Notes: a model not told the origin generated them from the sequence alone. A stretch of DNA of 43,234 bases from an uncultured Chlorobiaceae bacterium (GCA_903866255.1 CAIPMW010000025.1:1-43234); one strand, 5' to 3'; positions 24,893 through 34,093 are shown, counted from the stretch's first letter. Numbers and translations are program-made.

Positions 24893-25387
24893 ATGGCACG
24901 ACCAGCAAGCGGTAAGGACGTTTTGGAAAAGGCAAAGGAAGCATTGGCAAATGCTCGGACTGTAGAAGAGCTGCGCCAGGCACAAGCGGTGATCTTGCCA
25001 CTGGAATACGTTTTTTCTATTGACCAAGTCGCCGCTGTCATGGGCATTTCAAAGGGTTGGGCCTGTCAATTGAGAAGGCGTTTTATAAATGCCGGTGGCC
25101 TGCCAGCAGAAACAAAACCAAAGCGAGGTGGACGTCATCGGGAAAATATGAGCAAAGAGGAAGAGGTTGCCTTTCTTGCTCCTTTTTTCGATAAAGCGAT
25201 ATTGATTGCCAGCGAGATCAAGAGTGCGCTGGACGAACGAATGGGCCGTAAAACGGCACTTGCTTCGACCTATAATCTTCTGTACAGGCATAACTGGCGG
25301 AAGCTTGTGCCGGACAAAAGACATACAATAACCGATGTCGAAGCGCAGTTGGACTGGAAAAACTCCGGGAACTCCTTTCCCCGATAA
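24893..25387 (+). CDS. IS630-family transposase, N-terminal part (ORF A)
   Basis: 164 aa, ATG preceded by a strong AAGGAGGTG site. It holds the helix-turn-helix DNA-binding region (FSIDQVAAVMGISKGWACQLRRRF) and the second winged-helix-like part (RKTALASTYNLLYRHNW) of an IS630 transposase. After DWK at the 3' end the frame leaves the family: the in-family continuation (KLRELLSPINAEWPGKKPLS) is in the -1 frame, joined at a run of five A residues at about 25357-25361. Either ribosomes slip -1 there or one A has been lost. Confidence 0.85.
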   Translation: MARPASGKDVLEKAKEALANARTVEELRQAQAVILPLEYVFSIDQVAAVMGISKGWACQLRRRFINAGGLPAETKPKRGGRHRENMSKEEEVAFLAPFFDKAILIASEIKSALDERMGRKTALASTYNLLYRHNWRKLVPDKRHTITDVEAQLDWKNSGNSFPR

Positions 25388-25390
25388 ACG

Positions 25391-25418
25391 CTGAGTGGCC
25401 TGGCAAAAAGCCACTCAG
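25391..25418 (+). other. Hairpin at the transposase ORF A/ORF B junction
   Basis: CTGAGTGGC at 25391-25399 and GCCACTCAG at 25410-25418 form a perfect 9-bp stem with a 10-nt loop. It starts about 30 nt after the A-run where the frame changes, farther than the 5-9 nt usual for a frameshift stimulator. Confidence 0.55.
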
Positions 25419-25419
25419 T

Positions 25420-25935
25420 GTGATGTTTCAGGATGAAGCACGTTTTGGCCGTATTTCCGAGCCGCGACGCTGTTGGTATCCCCGACCGGTTCGCCCGCTG
25501 ACTATGGCTATGGTAACACAGGAGTATACCTATGCGTATGCTGCCGTGTCTGTGGCAGATGGGGCGCTCGCCACGTTGATCCTGCCGACTGTCAATACCG
25601 GATGCATGCAGATATTTCTCGATGAAATATCATCCCGGCACCCTGATGACTGGATAGTGATGATCATGAATGGGGCTGGTTGGCACAAGTCGTCCACGTT
25701 AAAAACCCCAGAAAATATGCGCCTGATTTCATTGCCACCTTATTTGCCGGAACTCAATCCAGTCGAGCACTTGTGGGATGAACTTCGCGAAAAAGCTTTC
25801 GGAAATAGAGTTTTCAACAGCTTGGATGCTCTTGAAGACCACTTGGAAGCTTCATTAAGGATAATGGAACATGATACACCAAGAGTCCATTCCATCGTCG
25901 CATGGCCTTGGATTATGAATTCATTATTGATTTAG
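25420..25935 (+). CDS. IS630-family transposase, DDE catalytic part (ORF B), substituted active site
   Basis: 171 aa from GTG-ATG, but the in-frame coding sequence begins upstream at the frame change in ORF A. The DDE fold is clear: first Asp in [10 protein letters not shown], final Glu in [20 protein letters not shown]. The middle position, normally Asp in M-D-x-A-x-x-H, reads [11 protein letters not shown], that is Asn. Loss of this metal ligand should abolish strand transfer. The stop codon lies within the right terminal repeat. Confidence 0.88.
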
Positions 25936-26717: not shown

Positions 26718-27875
26718 TTACCCTATCTTTTGCGAGCCTGTAATAATCGCATTGACAAGCTTCTCAATCGTCGCATCATCCAACAGCACCGGAATATTGA
26801 GGCAGATACTGCTGCGCAGCATGATGCCGGTTTTTGGCCAGAGTGCTTCAAGATCGGCATCACGATAGCGATCGTATTCACCAAGAAGATGACCCCAGAC
26901 ACCAGCAAAATGCCAGTCGAGCGCTTCGGGAAGGATCTTGGTGCCAAAACCATGCTCGGTCAGGTGCGCTTCAAACTGCAACGCAGCATCACGATCCCGC
27001 ATCCTGAAAATAAGGGTATCACCCTGGGCTCCAGCCTCATCACTGAATGGCCGGAGAATAATGTTGTCAAGATGGCGGATTGCATCCTTGATTCTTTTTT
27101 TATTCTCTCTTGATTTCGACAGAATCGTCTCAATCTTGGCAAGCTGGGCAAGCCCTATTGCTGCTGTCACTTCGCTTAAACGCATGTTCAACCCCTTGGC
27201 TCTTCTTGGATCTTTGCCTCTTGGCAGACCAGGAATGTGCATGTGCCCATGATCGGAGAACTCGGCTGCACGGTCATAAATTTCCTTGTCGTTGGTGATA
27301 ATGATACCACCTTCACCGGTATGGAGTGTCTTGCCTGCGTCAAAGGAGAAAGAGGCGACACTACCAAACGTGCCGAGCTTCTGCCCTTTGTAGGTGGCTC
27401 CGAGTGCCTGGGCGGCATCCTCAATCAGTATCAGACCATGCTTTTTACATATCGCAGCAAGCTCAGCCATTTTCGGTGGAGCCCACATTGGAATAACCAC
27501 CACCGCTTTTGTGGCCGGTGTAATGGCCTTCTCTACCTCCAGAGGATCAAGATGGTATGTTTCATCCAGCTCGACCGGAACCGGGACTGCCCCCAACGCG
27601 CTGATAGCCTCTATCGGCGCTATGAATGTCCAGGCCGTGGTAATAACCTCGTCGCCCGGCCCAATCCCTGCACCTGCAAGAGCACAGTGAATTGCCGCAG
27701 TACCAGAGGAAACTGCATGAGCATACTTGACACCCATCCATGCCGCAAATTTTTCTTCAAACTCTCTTGCTTTGTAGTTGCCACCGCCATAACGGTACAA
27801 GTTGACCTTTTCACGGCTGAAAAGCTCCTGAATTTCAGCCAGCTCTTCCCGCCCAATGAGTTCCGCTCCCGCCAT
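26718..27875 (-). CDS. DegT/DnrJ/EryC1/StrS aminotransferase, KdnA-like
   Basis: 385 aa PLP-dependent sugar aminotransferase. PLP-binding K182 lies in SFSFDAGKTLHTGEGG, D153 in LIEDAAQALG, and the SSGTAA motif at 56-61 binds phosphate. SDHGH after the lysine and the GKT-x-TGEGG context recall KdnA, which converts the 8-oxo form of Kdo to 8-amino-Kdo in Shewanella. The gene sits 18 bp behind an Fe-type alcohol dehydrogenase that would make the ketone or aldehyde substrate, as KdnB does. AGGA lies upstream of the ATG. It is the last gene of a five-gene minus-strand operon. The sugar is inferred; other keto-sugars are possible. Confidence 0.87.
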   Translation of the reverse strand: MAGAELIGREELAEIQELFSREKVNLYRYGGGNYKAREFEEKFAAWMGVKYAHAVSSGTAAIHCALAGAGIGPGDEVITTAWTFIAPIEAISALGAVPVPVELDETYHLDPLEVEKAITPATKAVVVIPMWAPPKMAELAAICKKHGLILIEDAAQALGATYKGQKLGTFGSVASFSFDAGKTLHTGEGGIIITNDKEIYDRAAEFSDHGHMHIPGLPRGKDPRRAKGLNMRLSEVTAAIGLAQLAKIETILSKSRENKKRIKDAIRHLDNIILRPFSDEAGAQGDTLIFRMRDRDAALQFEAHLTEHGFGTKILPEALDWHFAGVWGHLLGEYDRYRDADLEALWPKTGIMLRSSICLNIPVLLDDATIEKLVNAIITGSQKIG

Positions 27876-27893
27876 AATATCTGTCCTGTTCGT

Positions 27894-29024
27894 TTAGGTT
27901 AATTGAAATACAACTTCAAGTGCCGACTCCTCGGTAAACTCAACGGGGTTTCCGGAAAATGAGCCCTTCAGTGCTTCCGAAGCATTATGAGCAAATTCAG
28001 CAGCATTCCCTTTCCCATAACCATAGGTGACAAGGTTTGGAATCTGCAATTGCTGATACAGTTCATCCATCTGTTCAAGCAACTCTTCGGTAGCCTCTTT
28101 TGGTGACGGAGTCGAGTGCAATGGGTTGAGGATAGCATATTTTTCGTAGCCATGAAGATGGTTGTAGCGCATCACCTCTTTCAGGAAAATAGCGCCTGCA
28201 AGACCATGTGGAACACGGTGCTTGACACCAAGGTAGTAGGCAAAACCGTTGGTGGGGCCATCACCGGAGTTCATGAGAGCCGCTGTGCCACAAACACTGC
28301 CAATGGCAAGGTCAAGTCGCGATTCAGCCCGGTCGAGCTGATTCTGCTGCAGGGCAGAAAAGGTGCGCTGGAACCCTTCAACTGAAAAAATCCTGCTCAA
28401 TGCCGTATGCTTGATGGATCCAAAACTGTCTACACAGTGTACAAGGCTGTCCATCGCTGAGGCAATCACACTCTCAATCGGAGCTGTCATGGAGAGCTGT
28501 GGGTCAATAACCGCTTTTTTGGGGAAATTCTTGCGGCTGTTGATCCCAAGCTTGCGTCCCTCGGCCTCATCAATAAACACAGCATTATAGCTGACCTCAG
28601 CACCACTTCCCAGCAACGTCGGCACCGTGACAAGCGGCAGCGGGTCGTTCACACCTGCAGGAAAACCCTTAAGTGACAAGGCAGGAACATTGTTGGACAT
28701 GAGAAGGGCAACCCCCTTGCCGAGGTCGAGCGTACTGCCTCCGCCAATGGCTACAATCGCATCCGGCTTATTGCCTCTGAAAAATTCAGCAACATTTTCG
28801 AGATGGGCGTACGTTGGCTCCCCGGCAAATTCGTTGCAATAGAGCACCGCATTGGTATATACTGAGGTGAGGCTCTTCAGCACGTCCTGAAAATAGTGGC
28901 TTCCTGCAACATTGGCATCATAAATAATACCTGGCTTCTGCACCGACATCAGGGCCAGATGCTCGTTCAGCTTCAGTGCTTCGTTAACCCCGATAACAAG
29001 ATCGGTGGACAAAAAGAAATTCAT
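27894..29024 (-). CDS. Iron-containing alcohol dehydrogenase, KdnB-like
   Basis: 376 aa group III (Fe-ADH) dehydrogenase. GGGSTLDLGKGVAL near residue 95 binds NAD(P); metal ligands of the family are visible in AMDSLVHCVDS and KHRVPHGLAGA. The region VPTLLGSGAEVSYNAVF corresponds to the conserved T-x-x-G-[ST]-[GA]-S/A-E loop. Next to a KdnA-like aminotransferase and a CMP-sugar synthetase, the likely job is oxidation of a sugar-acid hydroxyl before transamination, as KdnB does at C8 of Kdo. It lies 24 bp after the CMP-transferase gene and 18 bp before the aminotransferase gene. Substrate and metal are not proven by sequence. Confidence 0.86.
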   Translation of the reverse strand: MNFFLSTDLVIGVNEALKLNEHLALMSVQKPGIIYDANVAGSHYFQDVLKSLTSVYTNAVLYCNEFAGEPTYAHLENVAEFFRGNKPDAIVAIGGGSTLDLGKGVALLMSNNVPALSLKGFPAGVNDPLPLVTVPTLLGSGAEVSYNAVFIDEAEGRKLGINSRKNFPKKAVIDPQLSMTAPIESVIASAMDSLVHCVDSFGSIKHTALSRIFSVEGFQRTFSALQQNQLDRAESRLDLAIGSVCGTAALMNSGDGPTNGFAYYLGVKHRVPHGLAGAIFLKEVMRYNHLHGYEKYAILNPLHSTPSPKEATEELLEQMDELYQQLQIPNLVTYGYGKGNAAEFAHNASEALKGSFSGNPVEFTEESALEVVFQLT

Positions 29025-29048
29025 AAAAGAGGTAATCTAAAGGTTCTG

Positions 29049-29750
29049 TTAATCTTCATCCTGCTCTATCAGGTTTTTTTTAAAAAGATAGTACTCAATT
29101 AAATCTATTTCTTCGACAGTATCAATCTCCCAGGTTTGCCAAAATTCCATTTCATAGATGGAGAGCTTTTCTCCAATCCTGTTGTCGAAAGTGGCAAGAG
29201 TTTCAGGCGTAAAAATATAGATTGAGCCGTTCTCGATGAACTGGGTTGGTCGATCCTGACGCATTCCCCGATTGCGATAATCAAAGTTGACACTTGTCCA
29301 CTTTCCTTCTCGCGACTCCCACAAAGTAAGGTCGTCGGCTTTCGTCACCGAGATCAGCGAATCTGCCCCTTCACGACGAAAAACCTCCATCGCCGCATCA
29401 ATGTCACCAGGTTTCCGTAACGGTGAGGTTGCCTGCAAGAAGACAACCGTGCTGACAGCCATCTCGTACTCCAGTTCGATAACTTCAAGCGCATGGCTAA
29501 TGGCTGATTCCGAGCTTGCCTTGTCCCCGGAAAATTTCGCTGGACGTTCGATCACCTCAGCTCCGTACTCCTTGGCAATACCAGAAATAATAAAGCTGTC
29601 TGTCGAAACAAACACCTTGTCGATAGAAGTCGAAGCAAGAGCCTGCTGAATCGTCCAGGCAAGCAAGGGTTTTCCGGCTACGGAATAAATGTTCTTCTTT
29701 TTTAGCCCCTTTGAGCCGCCTCTGGCAGGAATAATCGCTACAGTGGACAT
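29049..29750 (-). CDS. CMP-sugar synthetase, NeuA type (acylneuraminate cytidylyltransferase family)
   Basis: 233 aa nucleotidyltransferase. The start [16 protein letters not shown] is the CTP-binding signature of NeuA-type CMP-nonulosonate synthetases; [12 protein letters not shown] and [12 protein letters not shown] match later family motifs. It should activate a 2-keto-3-deoxy sugar acid as its CMP derivative. KdsB, used for CMP-Kdo and CMP-8-amino-Kdo in known organisms, is a different branch, so this operon departs from the Shewanella layout. No NeuB/KdsA-type synthase is in the window; the sugar acid must come from elsewhere. It lies 24 bp before the dehydrogenase gene and 21 bp after the GT-B-like gene. 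Confidence 0.88.
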
Positions 29751-29771
29751 GATAATCGTATTCGTTTTGGT

Positions 29772-30728
29772 TTAACCATCAATCACCTGGCGACAGACAT
29801 CCGCAATCATTCTGGCTGCAGAATTATTCTGGAGTGGTGTCAGAGATGTTAATACGTCAGGATGGAGGCCACAATGTACCTCCTTGTTGAGAGCAGAACC
29901 TACAAAAATTGTCGAAGAAAACTGTGCAATCAACATGCGGGAGTTGGCAATCATCTCCTCTGTTTTCCCTTCACTAAAGACCAGACTGTCAGGGGCATAT
30001 CTCCGGATCTCCTCAATAGCTCGCTCTGCATTTTCGTTGGGATGGAGCTTGAACATCAGTTGATGATTCTCCGCCATAGCCAGGTACTTTTCAATATTTT
30101 TCCTCCGATTTTCGTAGATAAAGGTTTCACGATTATCAGAGGTACAGACAAGCACATAATCACGATATTTGAAATTGTTCAAAAGGTACTGTGTGCAGTT
30201 GTCAAAATTTGGAATACTGGTCACCTCAATCTTGGCAGCATTGACACCTTTTCGAATAAAGAGATCGCGATACCCTTCGCTTGCGACACAAAATTTTTGA
30301 TATGCATCCGATAAGCCGGTTGTTGCTGTACCGGCAATCCAGCGGGGCATCCATGAAACATTCCGGGCAAGATGGTAAAGAATGGTTTCTGGCTCAGTCA
30401 TTCCCTCCTGCACAAGCACCATTTTTTTCGTTCGAAAATGTTTTGGTACAATAAGATCTGTACAGGTCACGACAAGATCATAATCATGCGCAAGACCTCC
30501 GATATCGAGTTTCAGGTGATGTCCACGAAGATAATCAAGAGCACGATCAGAACGCTGTTTACCCATAATCGTAAACTCAAGCAGACCCAGATCACTGGCT
30601 GTGCCAAGCAGACCATCACTGAAAAACGGTGAAAAATACTGCTCATACTCGGTCAACCACCCGGCAATCTGATGCATCTGGGTAGTTTGATTCATTGACC
30701 CGCAGATAAACAAAACATTTTTCTTCAT
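29772..30728 (-). CDS. GT-B-fold glycosyltransferase-like protein, function unknown
   Basis: 318 aa soluble protein, beginning MKKNVLFICGSMNQTTQ. The C-terminal half resembles GT-B/CDP-glycerophosphotransferase or UDP-GlcNAc 2-epimerase-like proteins: MFKLHPNENAERAIEEI, then LVFSEGKTEEMIANSRML and IAQFSSTIFVGSALNKEV. In that fold, such segments bind a nucleotide-linked donor. I cannot assign donor or acceptor. Its ATG overlaps the stop of the upstream flippase-like gene (ATGA), so they are translationally coupled. It may transfer the CMP-sugar made by the next genes, but no Kdo/sialyltransferase signature is evident. Confidence 0.65.
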   Translation of the reverse strand: MKKNVLFICGSMNQTTQMHQIAGWLTEYEQYFSPFFSDGLLGTASDLGLLEFTIMGKQRSDRALDYLRGHHLKLDIGGLAHDYDLVVTCTDLIVPKHFRTKKMVLVQEGMTEPETILYHLARNVSWMPRWIAGTATTGLSDAYQKFCVASEGYRDLFIRKGVNAAKIEVTSIPNFDNCTQYLLNNFKYRDYVLVCTSDNRETFIYENRRKNIEKYLAMAENHQLMFKLHPNENAERAIEEIRRYAPDSLVFSEGKTEEMIANSRMLIAQFSSTIFVGSALNKEVHCGLHPDVLTSLTPLQNNSAARMIADVCRQVIDG

Positions 30729-31789
30729 GATTCTACCCGGTTTACAGCTTCGGCGTCATGAAGATGGACTCCCGAAAAAAACATCACTCCATAACCGGTT
30801 GTATACCAGAACACCTCTTTTAATCGCCTTAAGAGCACAAATGCGCCGCCGTAGGCAAGAACATCAGGGAAGCCAAGCGCCTGAAAAAATGCAAGATAAC
30901 CAAGATCCTGCACACCTAGTCCTGACGGGATGAAAAAAAAGAGCGTACGAAGCATGGTAAGAGCAATATCAATGGAGAGCACATCCAGAAAAGTGATATT
31001 GACACCAAGAAGCCTTAATATCGTATAACTCTCAATCGCAAGCGTTGACCAGGCAAACAGATAGAGAACCAATACAGGAAACAGCCGGCTGATGTATGTA
31101 CCTCTGTAACTCTTCAATTCTTCATCGGTATCAAAAAAACCCGACTCTTTTAGTAGAAGCCATTCTTTGACTTTGTTGAAAGGAACAAGCATCAGGAGCC
31201 TGTGTACATTCCGGGCCGCTTGTCCATTAAGAAGCAAGACAAGAAGAAAGAGAAACAACAAAAATACCACAAGGCCCATTGCAATAAGAATATATCCAAG
31301 TCCTTCAAATCCAAGCATTTTGGGAGATACCGACTGCAGAAGTGAAAAACCGGCAATAGAACCAATAATGGTATAAATTCCCTGGGCTAAACCAAGCATA
31401 AGCTTGCGAACAGCAACACTTGCCACTCCTGAAGGGATTGCAATCCCCATAAACCGGTTACAAAGATATGGACGCAGAGGCTCTCCAACGGCAACACCTG
31501 CGGGGAGCGTCATGGAAACAGTTTCAGCGATAACCTGTATCTTCAGAAGCTCGAAAAAGGGTATTGCCTTTATGCTCCGGGGAAAAACCTTTAGCCAGGC
31601 AAAAGCCTCGAGCAAATGAAGCGCAAGAAAGGGTAAAATAATCAGGATTGAGGAAAAGCCAATCGACGAGATCAGCACTGCAGAGCGCTTCAGGTCGAGT
31701 TGACTGAAAAGCCAGACAATCAGAATGATGCCAAGAGCAAGGCCAATATAACCAGTCCAGGGAAAACTGGATTTTTTAGTCACAGGCAT
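30725..31789 (-). CDS. Flippase-like membrane protein (UPF0104/LPG synthase TM family)
   Basis: 354 aa with about eight membrane helices. It resembles the lysylphosphatidylglycerol synthetase transmembrane/flippase-like (UPF0104) family: LPAGVAVGEPLRPYLCNRF with Gly-Glu-Pro, VASVAVRKLMLGLAQG, and FFIPSGLGVQDLGYLAFFQALG. The soluble LPG-synthase catalytic domain is absent. Members in cell-wall gene clusters are thought to move lipid-linked intermediates, although this is rarely proven. It is the first gene of the minus-strand operon and overlaps the GT-B-like gene by 4 bp. Confidence 0.83.
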   Translation of the reverse strand: MPVTKKSSFPWTGYIGLALGIILIVWLFSQLDLKRSAVLISSIGFSSILIILPFLALHLLEAFAWLKVFPRSIKAIPFFELLKIQVIAETVSMTLPAGVAVGEPLRPYLCNRFMGIAIPSGVASVAVRKLMLGLAQGIYTIIGSIAGFSLLQSVSPKMLGFEGLGYILIAMGLVVFLLFLFLLVLLLNGQAARNVHRLLMLVPFNKVKEWLLLKESGFFDTDEELKSYRGTYISRLFPVLVLYLFAWSTLAIESYTILRLLGVNITFLDVLSIDIALTMLRTLFFFIPSGLGVQDLGYLAFFQALGFPDVLAYGGAFVLLRRLKEVFWYTTGYGVMFFSGVHLHDAEAVNRVES

Positions 31790-32257: not shown

Positions 32258-34093
32258 ATGATGGGACTTATCAATCCTGACTTTCAGACACTGCCGGAAC
32301 TTTTTGCCTCAGTTTTTGCCCATTACAGGGATGAGCCTGCAAAATTTCCATTTGCACGAAAAATCAATGGGGTCTATAACCCAATATCATATCGTGAGTT
32401 CGAGAAGGATGTCACTACCTTCGCGGCATTTCTCAAACACAATGGCATCACCTCCAAAGACAGAGTGGCCATTCTTTCGGAAAACAGACCCGGATGGTAC
32501 CTCTCAGATATGGCTATCATGAACATCGGCGCAATCAATGTCCCACTCTACCCTTCTCTCCCGCCCAATCAGATTGAATACATTCTCAAAAACTGTGGTG
32601 CAAAAGCTGTTGTGGTTTCAAACATGCTCCAGCTTGGGAAAATTCTTTCGATACAAAAAAACCTTTCAGAGTTAACTCTGGTGGTTATCATGAACCGCCT
32701 TGAAGAGGTCATTGAAAATGTTTTTGACCTGAACGAGGTGAAAAGAGAGGGTGAAGCAATTCTTGCCAGAGAGCCATTCATTCTGGATGGCACAATTGTC
32801 AACCCTGACGATGTTGCAACCATTATTTACACATCCGGAACAACCGGACTTCCCAAAGGAGTGATGCTCACCCATCGGAATATCTGTGAAAATGTCAAAT
32901 CATGTTCATCAGTTATCTGTCTTGATGATTCAGATCGCGGCCTCTCCTTTCTTCCCCTCTCCCATGCTTATGAACGAACTGGTGGCTATTATCTGCTGTT
33001 TGCCTGCGGAGCAAGTATATACCTTGCCGAAAGCGTTGAAACCATATCGCTTAACATGACAGAAGCTCAGCCAACGATCATGTTTACAGTGCCAAGGCTT
33101 TTTGATCGTATCAAATCAGGAATTCTGAAACAGATTTCAACTCAGAGTGCCTTAAAACAAAAAATATTTTATGGGGCTCTGAAAACAGGCGAAAAGTATC
33201 ACAATGAACTCAATACGCAAGGACACGTGTCGCCACTGCTCGCCATCCAGCATACACTGGCAAAACAACTTGTCTACAACAAGATAAAGAACAAGTTTGG
33301 AGGACACCTGCGCTATTTTGTTTCTGGTGGGGCTGCTCTGCCTCAAAAAATCGGGGAATTTTTTCAGGCACTTGATATCCGTATCCTTGAGGGGTTTGGT
33401 TTGACCGAAACAGCGCCAGTCACTCATGTTAACCGCCCTGAAAAAATCAAATATGGTACTGTTGGCAGAGCTGTTGACAACGTCGAAGTCATGATTGCGC
33501 CTGATGGTGAAATACTGCTCAAAGGGCCGAATATCATGAAGGGGTATTGGAATGATGAGGCAGCTACCCGCGAGGTTATCAAAGATGGCTGGTTTCACTC
33601 AGGAGATATTGGAGAGATCGATCGGGATGGCTATCTGACCATAACTGACCGTAAAAAACATATCATCGTCACAACCGGTGGAAAAAATATTGCTCCCGGA
33701 CCCATCGAGAACATGATCTCTGAAAGCGCCTTCGTCGATCAGGTCATTGTTGTCGGTGAAAAGCGTCCATTTCTGATTGCGCTTATTGTCCCTGACTTCA
33801 CAGCGCTTCAGGAATTTGCTGCTGCTGAAAAAATAACATTCTCTACAATCAAGGAGTTGATTGAGCATAAAGAGGTCATGCAGATTTATGAAAAGCTGTT
33901 ACGAAATATCTCAAAACATCTCGCTACCCACGAAAAGATACGCAAGTTTCTGTTGGTAGACACCGCATTTACCATTGATAACGCTCAAATGACACCAACA
34001 TTCAAACTCAAACGAAAAATCATTTATGCAAAGTATGCTACCGAGATTGACAAGATGTATAAAACCTTCAACACGGTCTATAATACAGAGTAA
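32258..34093 (+). CDS. Long-chain fatty acid--CoA ligase (AMP-binding)
   Basis: 611 aa; a second ATG directly follows the first. The adenylation signature [19 protein letters not shown] (about residue 190) forms the P-loop; [16 protein letters not shown] and [13 protein letters not shown] are A5 and A7 motifs; the C-terminal domain has [19 protein letters not shown]. The length and the long insertion before the A5 motif fit the FAA1/long-chain acyl-CoA synthetase group. It activates fatty acids for membrane lipid recycling; green sulfur bacteria do not live on fatty acids. Divergent from the sugar operon and convergent with mutY. Confidence 0.92.

Follow-up and report, generated by a model that had tools for sequence, protein, structure and literature searches.

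The window analysed here, a stretch of 43,234 nucleotides from an uncultured Chlorobiaceae bacterium (GCA_903866255.1 CAIPMW010000025.1:1-43234), carries five open reading frames (ORFs) on the minus strand at positions 31789-26718, all with ATG starts, which we discuss as a candidate operon for a cytidine monophosphate (CMP)-activated amino sugar acid. In the order of transcription, the first gene (30725..31789) encodes an AglD/HpnL-like multi-spanning membrane protein of 354 amino acids (aa), a putative flippase or lipid exporter that matches LPG_synthase_TM (Pfam PF03706, 91 bits) and NCBIfam HpnL (89 bits, under the cut-off). It overlaps by 4 bp (30725-30728) with the gene for a 318-aa protein without a Pfam match (29772..30728; hereafter ORF318), a putative CMP-ulosonate transferase. 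After 21 bp follows the gene for a NeuA/PseF-type cytidylyltransferase, or CMP-sugar-acid synthetase, of 233 aa (29049..29750; PF02348, CTP_transf_3, 89 bits). It is separated by 24 bp from the gene for a 376-aa Fe-type alcohol dehydrogenase (27894..29024; PF00465, Fe-ADH, 126 bits), putatively the oxidase of the terminal alcohol of a sugar acid. The last gene, after another 18 bp, encodes a 385-aa DegT-family aminotransferase (26718..27875; Pfam DegT_DnrJ_EryC1, 267 bits), which may aminate the resulting terminal aldehyde. ORFs, spacing and Pfam matches agree with the five-gene operon that had been described in an earlier note made from the DNA alone. A scan for promoters and terminators gave a modest excess over shuffled sequences and no usable signal.

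The genome of the window (2.8 Mb) belongs to the Chlorobiaceae by the kinship of its operon relatives. All five genes are present in the same order and on the same strand in 66 of the 77 named GTDB Chlorobiaceae loci, including those of Chlorobium ferrooxidans, C. phaeovibrioides, Pelodictyon luteolum and Chlorobaculum species; the remaining 11 loci are short or contig-cut stretches. Median identities to the window proteins range from 67 to 90% in the named loci, and the conservation of gene order is far beyond chance. This answers the question of conservation across the Chlorobiaceae, which the earlier note had raised as a check. At the level of genomes, the KdnA-like aminotransferase gene was found in 80/86 Chlorobiaceae (79-98% identity), the NeuA-like gene in 83/86 (63-97% identity) and ORF318 likewise in 83/86. 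Where the NeuA-like gene occurs without the KdnA-like one, it is in most cases located near a contig start. No orthologues of the KdnA-like aminotransferase and the NeuA-like cytidylyltransferase were found in the 12 other genomes of the class, ten of which do encode ORF318 (52-58% identity), and the dehydrogenase, used as a query against the genome contigs, matched only Chlorobiaceae/Chlorobiales records. The operon is thus a core locus of the Chlorobiaceae that, as a set, is absent elsewhere in the class. A strain-specific O-antigen locus is ruled out by this family-wide occurrence.

The chemistry suggested by the gene content resembles a pathway of Shewanella, in which KdnB, KdnA and KdsB reportedly convert 3-deoxy-D-manno-octulosonic acid (Kdo) to CMP-8-amino-Kdo, as Gattis and colleagues are said to have described in 2013 (structures 5k8b and 5k8c). 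Shewanella KdnA (5k8b) is the best PDB match of the aminotransferase, with 275 bits compared to 158 for the next structure. In the family tree, the KdnA superclade (100/99) includes the protein, whereas ArnB, WecE and LegC fall elsewhere; within the superclade, it forms a sister subclade (98/94) together with a protein from one other Bacteroidota genome (locus L171). It also carries the motifs of the superclade, SFD..KT, DHGH and WH....W.H. The expected kinship with KdnA could therefore be confirmed, and tree and motifs rule out a UDP (uridine diphosphate)-sugar aminotransferase. Our family trees contain 15 to 19 rows, some on long branches, and for this reason settle large groups rather than fine placement.

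A different result was obtained for the dehydrogenase. The FeADH3 subfamily has KdnB as its characterised member (PMC5125639). The window protein scored 66 bits against KdnB (5k8c) and 103 bits against the 1,3-propanediol dehydrogenase 4fr2, whereas a true KdnB homologue from another Bacteroidota genome reached 449 bits against 5k8c. Its closest partner in the tree is the dehydrogenase of L171 (98/96), on the FucO/YiaY side, with the KdnB clade standing separately (100/100). An orthologue of KdnB (family cd08184) is ruled out by these scores and clades. Clustering with unrelated families, by which the earlier note would have considered its proposal refuted, is thus seen for one enzyme of the pair and not for the other. 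Both nearest relatives in L171 are clustered with genes for NeuA, NeuB, NeuC, NeuD and LegC. Although it is one distant genome, this cluster supports the product of NeuB, rather than Kdo, as the substrate of the two enzymes.

The cytidylyltransferase matched the CMP-NeuAc synthetase 6ifd best (116 bits). KdsB proteins gave 30 bits or less, and the KdsB models remained far under their cut-offs. In the tree, it groups with a NeuA protein of a nonulosonate cluster, apart from KdsB, from the cytidylyltransferases of 8-amino-Kdo (Kdo8N) pathways and from CTP267, a cytidylyltransferase of other Bacteroidota described below. These comparisons place it, as had been proposed, in the NeuA/PseF branch and not in the KdsB branch. 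Judged by its sequences, the Chlorobiaceae operon would follow the logic of the Shewanella Kdo8N pathway but does not belong to it. The two share oxidation, transamination and CMP activation encoded in neighbouring genes as well as an aminotransferase of the KdnA superclade, but in the Chlorobiaceae the dehydrogenase is not KdnB, the activating enzyme is of the NeuA branch, transferase and flippase-like genes are linked, KdsB is encoded separately and a NeuB belongs to the core genome. The earlier idea of a keto-deoxy sugar acid that is aminated and activated with CMP is thus supported, whereas membership in the KdnB and KdsB families is not. Kdo8N has been called a hallmark of Shewanella (PMC6357163). 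Classical pairs of KdnA- and KdnB-type genes, mostly with a KdsB-type cytidylyltransferase, were also seen in at least five Bacteroidota genomes (L172, L174-L177), suggesting Kdo8N outside Shewanella.

The function of ORF318 was approached by structure prediction. An AlphaFold2 model based on 16 orthologues reached a pLDDT of 83.8 and a pTM of 0.82, with partly low confidence for residues 111-133. Foldseek matched it to GT-B folds in the PDB, with UDP-GlcNAc 2-epimerases on top, followed by TagF, the CMP-bound capsule enzyme 8a0c and the polysialyltransferase 5wcn. The model thus supports the label 'GT-B-like' from the earlier note. The orthologues share the invariant motifs VQEG, KLHPNE and FSST (alignment A1), which we take to recall the HP and acidic-Gly motifs of bacterial CMP-sialic-acid transferases. 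We regard ORF318 as a putative CMP-ulosonate transferase.

ORF318 is not restricted to the Chlorobiaceae. Among 394 Bacteroidota genomes sampled, the family was detected in 137; within the class, it occurs in 93/98 genomes. At the loci inspected outside the Chlorobiaceae, it is usually followed by CTP267, a cytidylyltransferase of the KdsB branch (about 267 aa), and the loci often add a TktN/TktC split transketolase, a class III aminotransferase, a short-chain dehydrogenase/reductase (SDR), a KdsC-like HAD protein, NeuB and a fatty-acid-hydroxylase-like protein. This operon, seen in the order ORF318-CTP267-transketolase-aminotransferase-SDR-HAD-NeuB-hydroxylase among loci L057-L126, is uncharacterised. 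The flippase-like gene adjoins ORF318 throughout the order to which the Chlorobiaceae belong, and in some other Bacteroidota as well. Most of the outgroup families of the order combine this pair with CTP267, and in two outgroup genomes the transketolase halves and the class III aminotransferase are also encoded at the ORF318 locus.

This association with NeuB bears on an alternative for the whole operon, namely a CMP or CDP (cytidine diphosphate) head group that is not a ulosonate, such as a CMP-activated phosphonate or amino alcohol, with the dehydrogenase and aminotransferase acting on a small aldehyde. The better match of the dehydrogenase to small-alcohol dehydrogenases than to KdnB would fit such a pathway, and CTP_transf_3 proteins and GT-B proteins such as TagF do take CMP or CDP donors. 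Against the background of the KdnA-superclade motifs and the link of ORF318 to NeuB, and with no phosphonate-specific gene seen among the neighbours, we consider it very improbable.

Comparison of the two types of ORF318 operon revealed a reversed distribution of their enzymes. No orthologue of the class III aminotransferase was found in the 86 Chlorobiaceae genomes (best matches 31-38% identity), whereas 8/12 other genomes of the class encode one at 72-75% identity. Because this pattern is the inverse of that of the KdnA- and NeuA-like genes, the CMP-sugar enzymes attached to a conserved transfer module seem to have been replaced: the Chlorobiaceae appear to have kept ORF318, the flippase-like protein and NeuB and to have exchanged the enzymes that make the donor. 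Both operons share the GT-B protein, orthologous NeuB and HAD proteins and, in several genomes, the flippase-like partner. They differ in the branch of their cytidylyltransferase and in the presence of dehydrogenase, KdnA- and NeuA-like enzymes instead of the class III aminotransferase. The change of modules probably happened only once, and the presence/absence counts are therefore not independent evidence.

We next considered the source of the sugar acid. The NeuB of the class (299 aa; PF03102, 257 bits) belongs to its core (93/98 genomes) and is about 70-77% identical to NeuB of the ORF318 operons in other Bacteroidota. A KdsC-like HAD protein that keeps the nucleophilic aspartate is encoded beside NeuB in this genome and in 6/10 loci with a called NeuB ORF. 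Kdo is served by genes of its own, with KdsA, an adjoining KdsC-like HAD and a KdsB above the cut-off all encoded in this genome. The KdsA-adjacent HAD (G000:C30, L261:1462-2079 (-)) carries a proline in place of the nucleophilic aspartate (FPVDG) and may therefore be inactive. With a core, orthologous NeuB at hand and Kdo provided for by KdsA and KdsB, free Kdo, which the earlier note had named along with other ulosonates, is a less likely substrate than a NeuB product. It remains the basis of the main rival explanation, in which free Kdo is oxidised and aminated by the two enzymes as in Shewanella, the part of the dedicated KdsB is taken over by a NeuA-type enzyme, and 8-amino-Kdo is incorporated into lipopolysaccharide (LPS). 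The KdnA-type aminotransferase, the Kdo made by the same cell and the classical KdnA/KdsB/KdnB sets elsewhere in Bacteroidota speak for this explanation. We nevertheless regard it as unlikely, since the dehydrogenase does not fall in the KdnB clade, nor the cytidylyltransferase in the KdsB or Kdo8N branch, ORF318 is associated with NeuB operons and not with Kdo genes, and an ordinary KdsB has been kept in the genome. A second ulosonate-type cluster (G000:C4, L149) encodes a NeuB with a C-terminal domain, a LegC-like DegT protein, a hexapeptide acyltransferase, an HpaI-type aldolase and a second KdsB-like cytidylyltransferase.

Based on these results, we propose that a ulosonic acid made by NeuB is first oxidised, then aminated at the terminal carbon, and that, once activated with cytidine triphosphate (CTP), it is attached to a lipid or glycan, a reading to which we assign a probability of roughly 0.5. 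In this pathway, the NeuB-type synthase would condense phosphoenolpyruvate with an aldose phosphate, and the KdsC-like phosphatase would release the free ulosonic acid, probably of nine carbons. The Fe-type dehydrogenase would then oxidise the terminal CH2OH to the aldehyde, the KdnA-like aminotransferase would convert the aldehyde to the amine, and the NeuA-like enzyme would form the CMP derivative from CTP. Finally, ORF318 would move the sugar from CMP to an acceptor, and the AglD/HpnL-like protein would carry the product across the membrane. The acceptor, all substrates and all reaction directions in this scheme are inferred. If the product has nine carbons, a 9-amino-9-deoxy nonulosonate is expected. 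A NeuA-type cytidylyltransferase, the core NeuB and the nearest dehydrogenase and aminotransferase relatives in the L171 cluster connect the operon to nonulosonic (sialic-like) acid clusters. It differs from them in that NeuC/NeuD or LegB/LegC are not encoded in the operon, NeuB has no SAF domain, and the genes for NeuB and the HAD protein are unlinked.

Several observations weigh against this proposal. NeuB and HAD are encoded outside the operon in the Chlorobiaceae, in this genome on another contig, and the L171 cluster is a single genome whose aminotransferase and dehydrogenase are only about 41% and 32% identical to those of the window. The substrate of Shewanella KdnA is an eight-carbon aldehyde, and the NeuB-linked HAD may serve Kdo too, because its KdsA-adjacent counterpart does not have the nucleophile. 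Moreover, NeuB ends before the C-terminal SAF (antifreeze-like) domain that is seen in the NeuB of L171. In characterised NeuB proteins, this domain helps to bind the N-acyl group; without it, the aldose partner is not fixed and eight carbons are possible. The missing domain also argues against a pathway in which dehydrogenase and aminotransferase act before the condensation, on an aldose or its phosphate, so that NeuB receives an amino sugar. Ordinary nonulosonate pathways do add their amino groups before NeuB, and the same could hold for the class III aminotransferase and SDR in the outgroup operon, but the closest relative of the aminotransferase studied here is KdnA, whose step comes once the ulosonate has been formed. 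Such an early amination is therefore improbable in our view.

The surroundings of the operon contribute to the question of the acceptor. A long-chain acyl-CoA synthetase-like gene (32258..34093, plus strand; Pfam AMP-binding, 281 bits) is a divergent, conserved neighbour that adjoins the operon in most Chlorobiaceae loci and in several outgroup genomes is found close to the ORF318 pair, which is suggestive of a functional tie. On the other side, a split IS630-like transposase (HTH_23 and DDE_3 parts; 24893-25935, plus strand) is located just beyond the 3' end of the operon. Together with this synthetase and the AglD/HpnL-like protein, the fatty-acid hydroxylase-like gene of the wider ORF318 operon (18 loci) suggests a lipid acceptor. 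The hydroxylase family uses oxygen, and its absence from the loci of the strictly anaerobic Chlorobiaceae would therefore not be surprising. LPS, one of the destinations suggested by the earlier note, may receive the sugar, but the linked genes point at least equally to a lipid.

One candidate lipid is an aminoglycosphingolipid from Chlorobium limicola (Jensen et al. 1991, cited in PMC11762602). A true serine palmitoyltransferase (SPT) is core to the class (best PDB matches 8guh/3a2b with 374 bits, next 260), and an epimerase-like gene lies divergently beside the SPT gene, an arrangement conserved among the Chlorobiaceae loci inspected and in one outgroup locus. Neither of these two genes was found among those near ORF318. 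In the phylum sample, counted by hand, SPT at E < 1e-140 occurs in about 37/44 ORF318-positive genomes outside the class compared to about 57/252 ORF318-negative ones; six ORF318-positive genomes are absent among the SPT matches listed (E up to 1e-75). This co-occurrence is confounded by ancestry. With SPT in the core genome, a link between the operon and the C. limicola lipid is plausible, although the specific case, in which the operon supplies the amino-sugar-acid head group and ORF318 transfers the CMP-amino-ulosonate to an SPT-derived ceramide, is rather doubtful. Because SPT is unlinked to the operon and the co-occurrence is confounded, we treat this as a lead and not as a result. The lipid described by Jensen and colleagues is reported to have a neuraminic-acid-like component. 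In the open literature, we found no paper on nonulosonic acids in Chlorobi and none linking neuraminic acid with chlorosomes.

If our reading is right, the Chlorobiaceae would make a terminally aminated, CMP-activated ulosonic acid by a new combination of enzymes, and KdnA-type chemistry would extend beyond Kdo8N. A family of probable transferases, found across much of the Bacteroidota and so far without a known function, would gain a role, and a direct genetic test could show where a lipid first reported over three decades ago comes from. Should the ceramide lead prove true, it would mean a bacterial ganglioside-like lipid made by a pathway different from the animal one. Since nearly every green sulfur bacterium keeps the pathway, it probably plays an important part in the envelope of these organisms.

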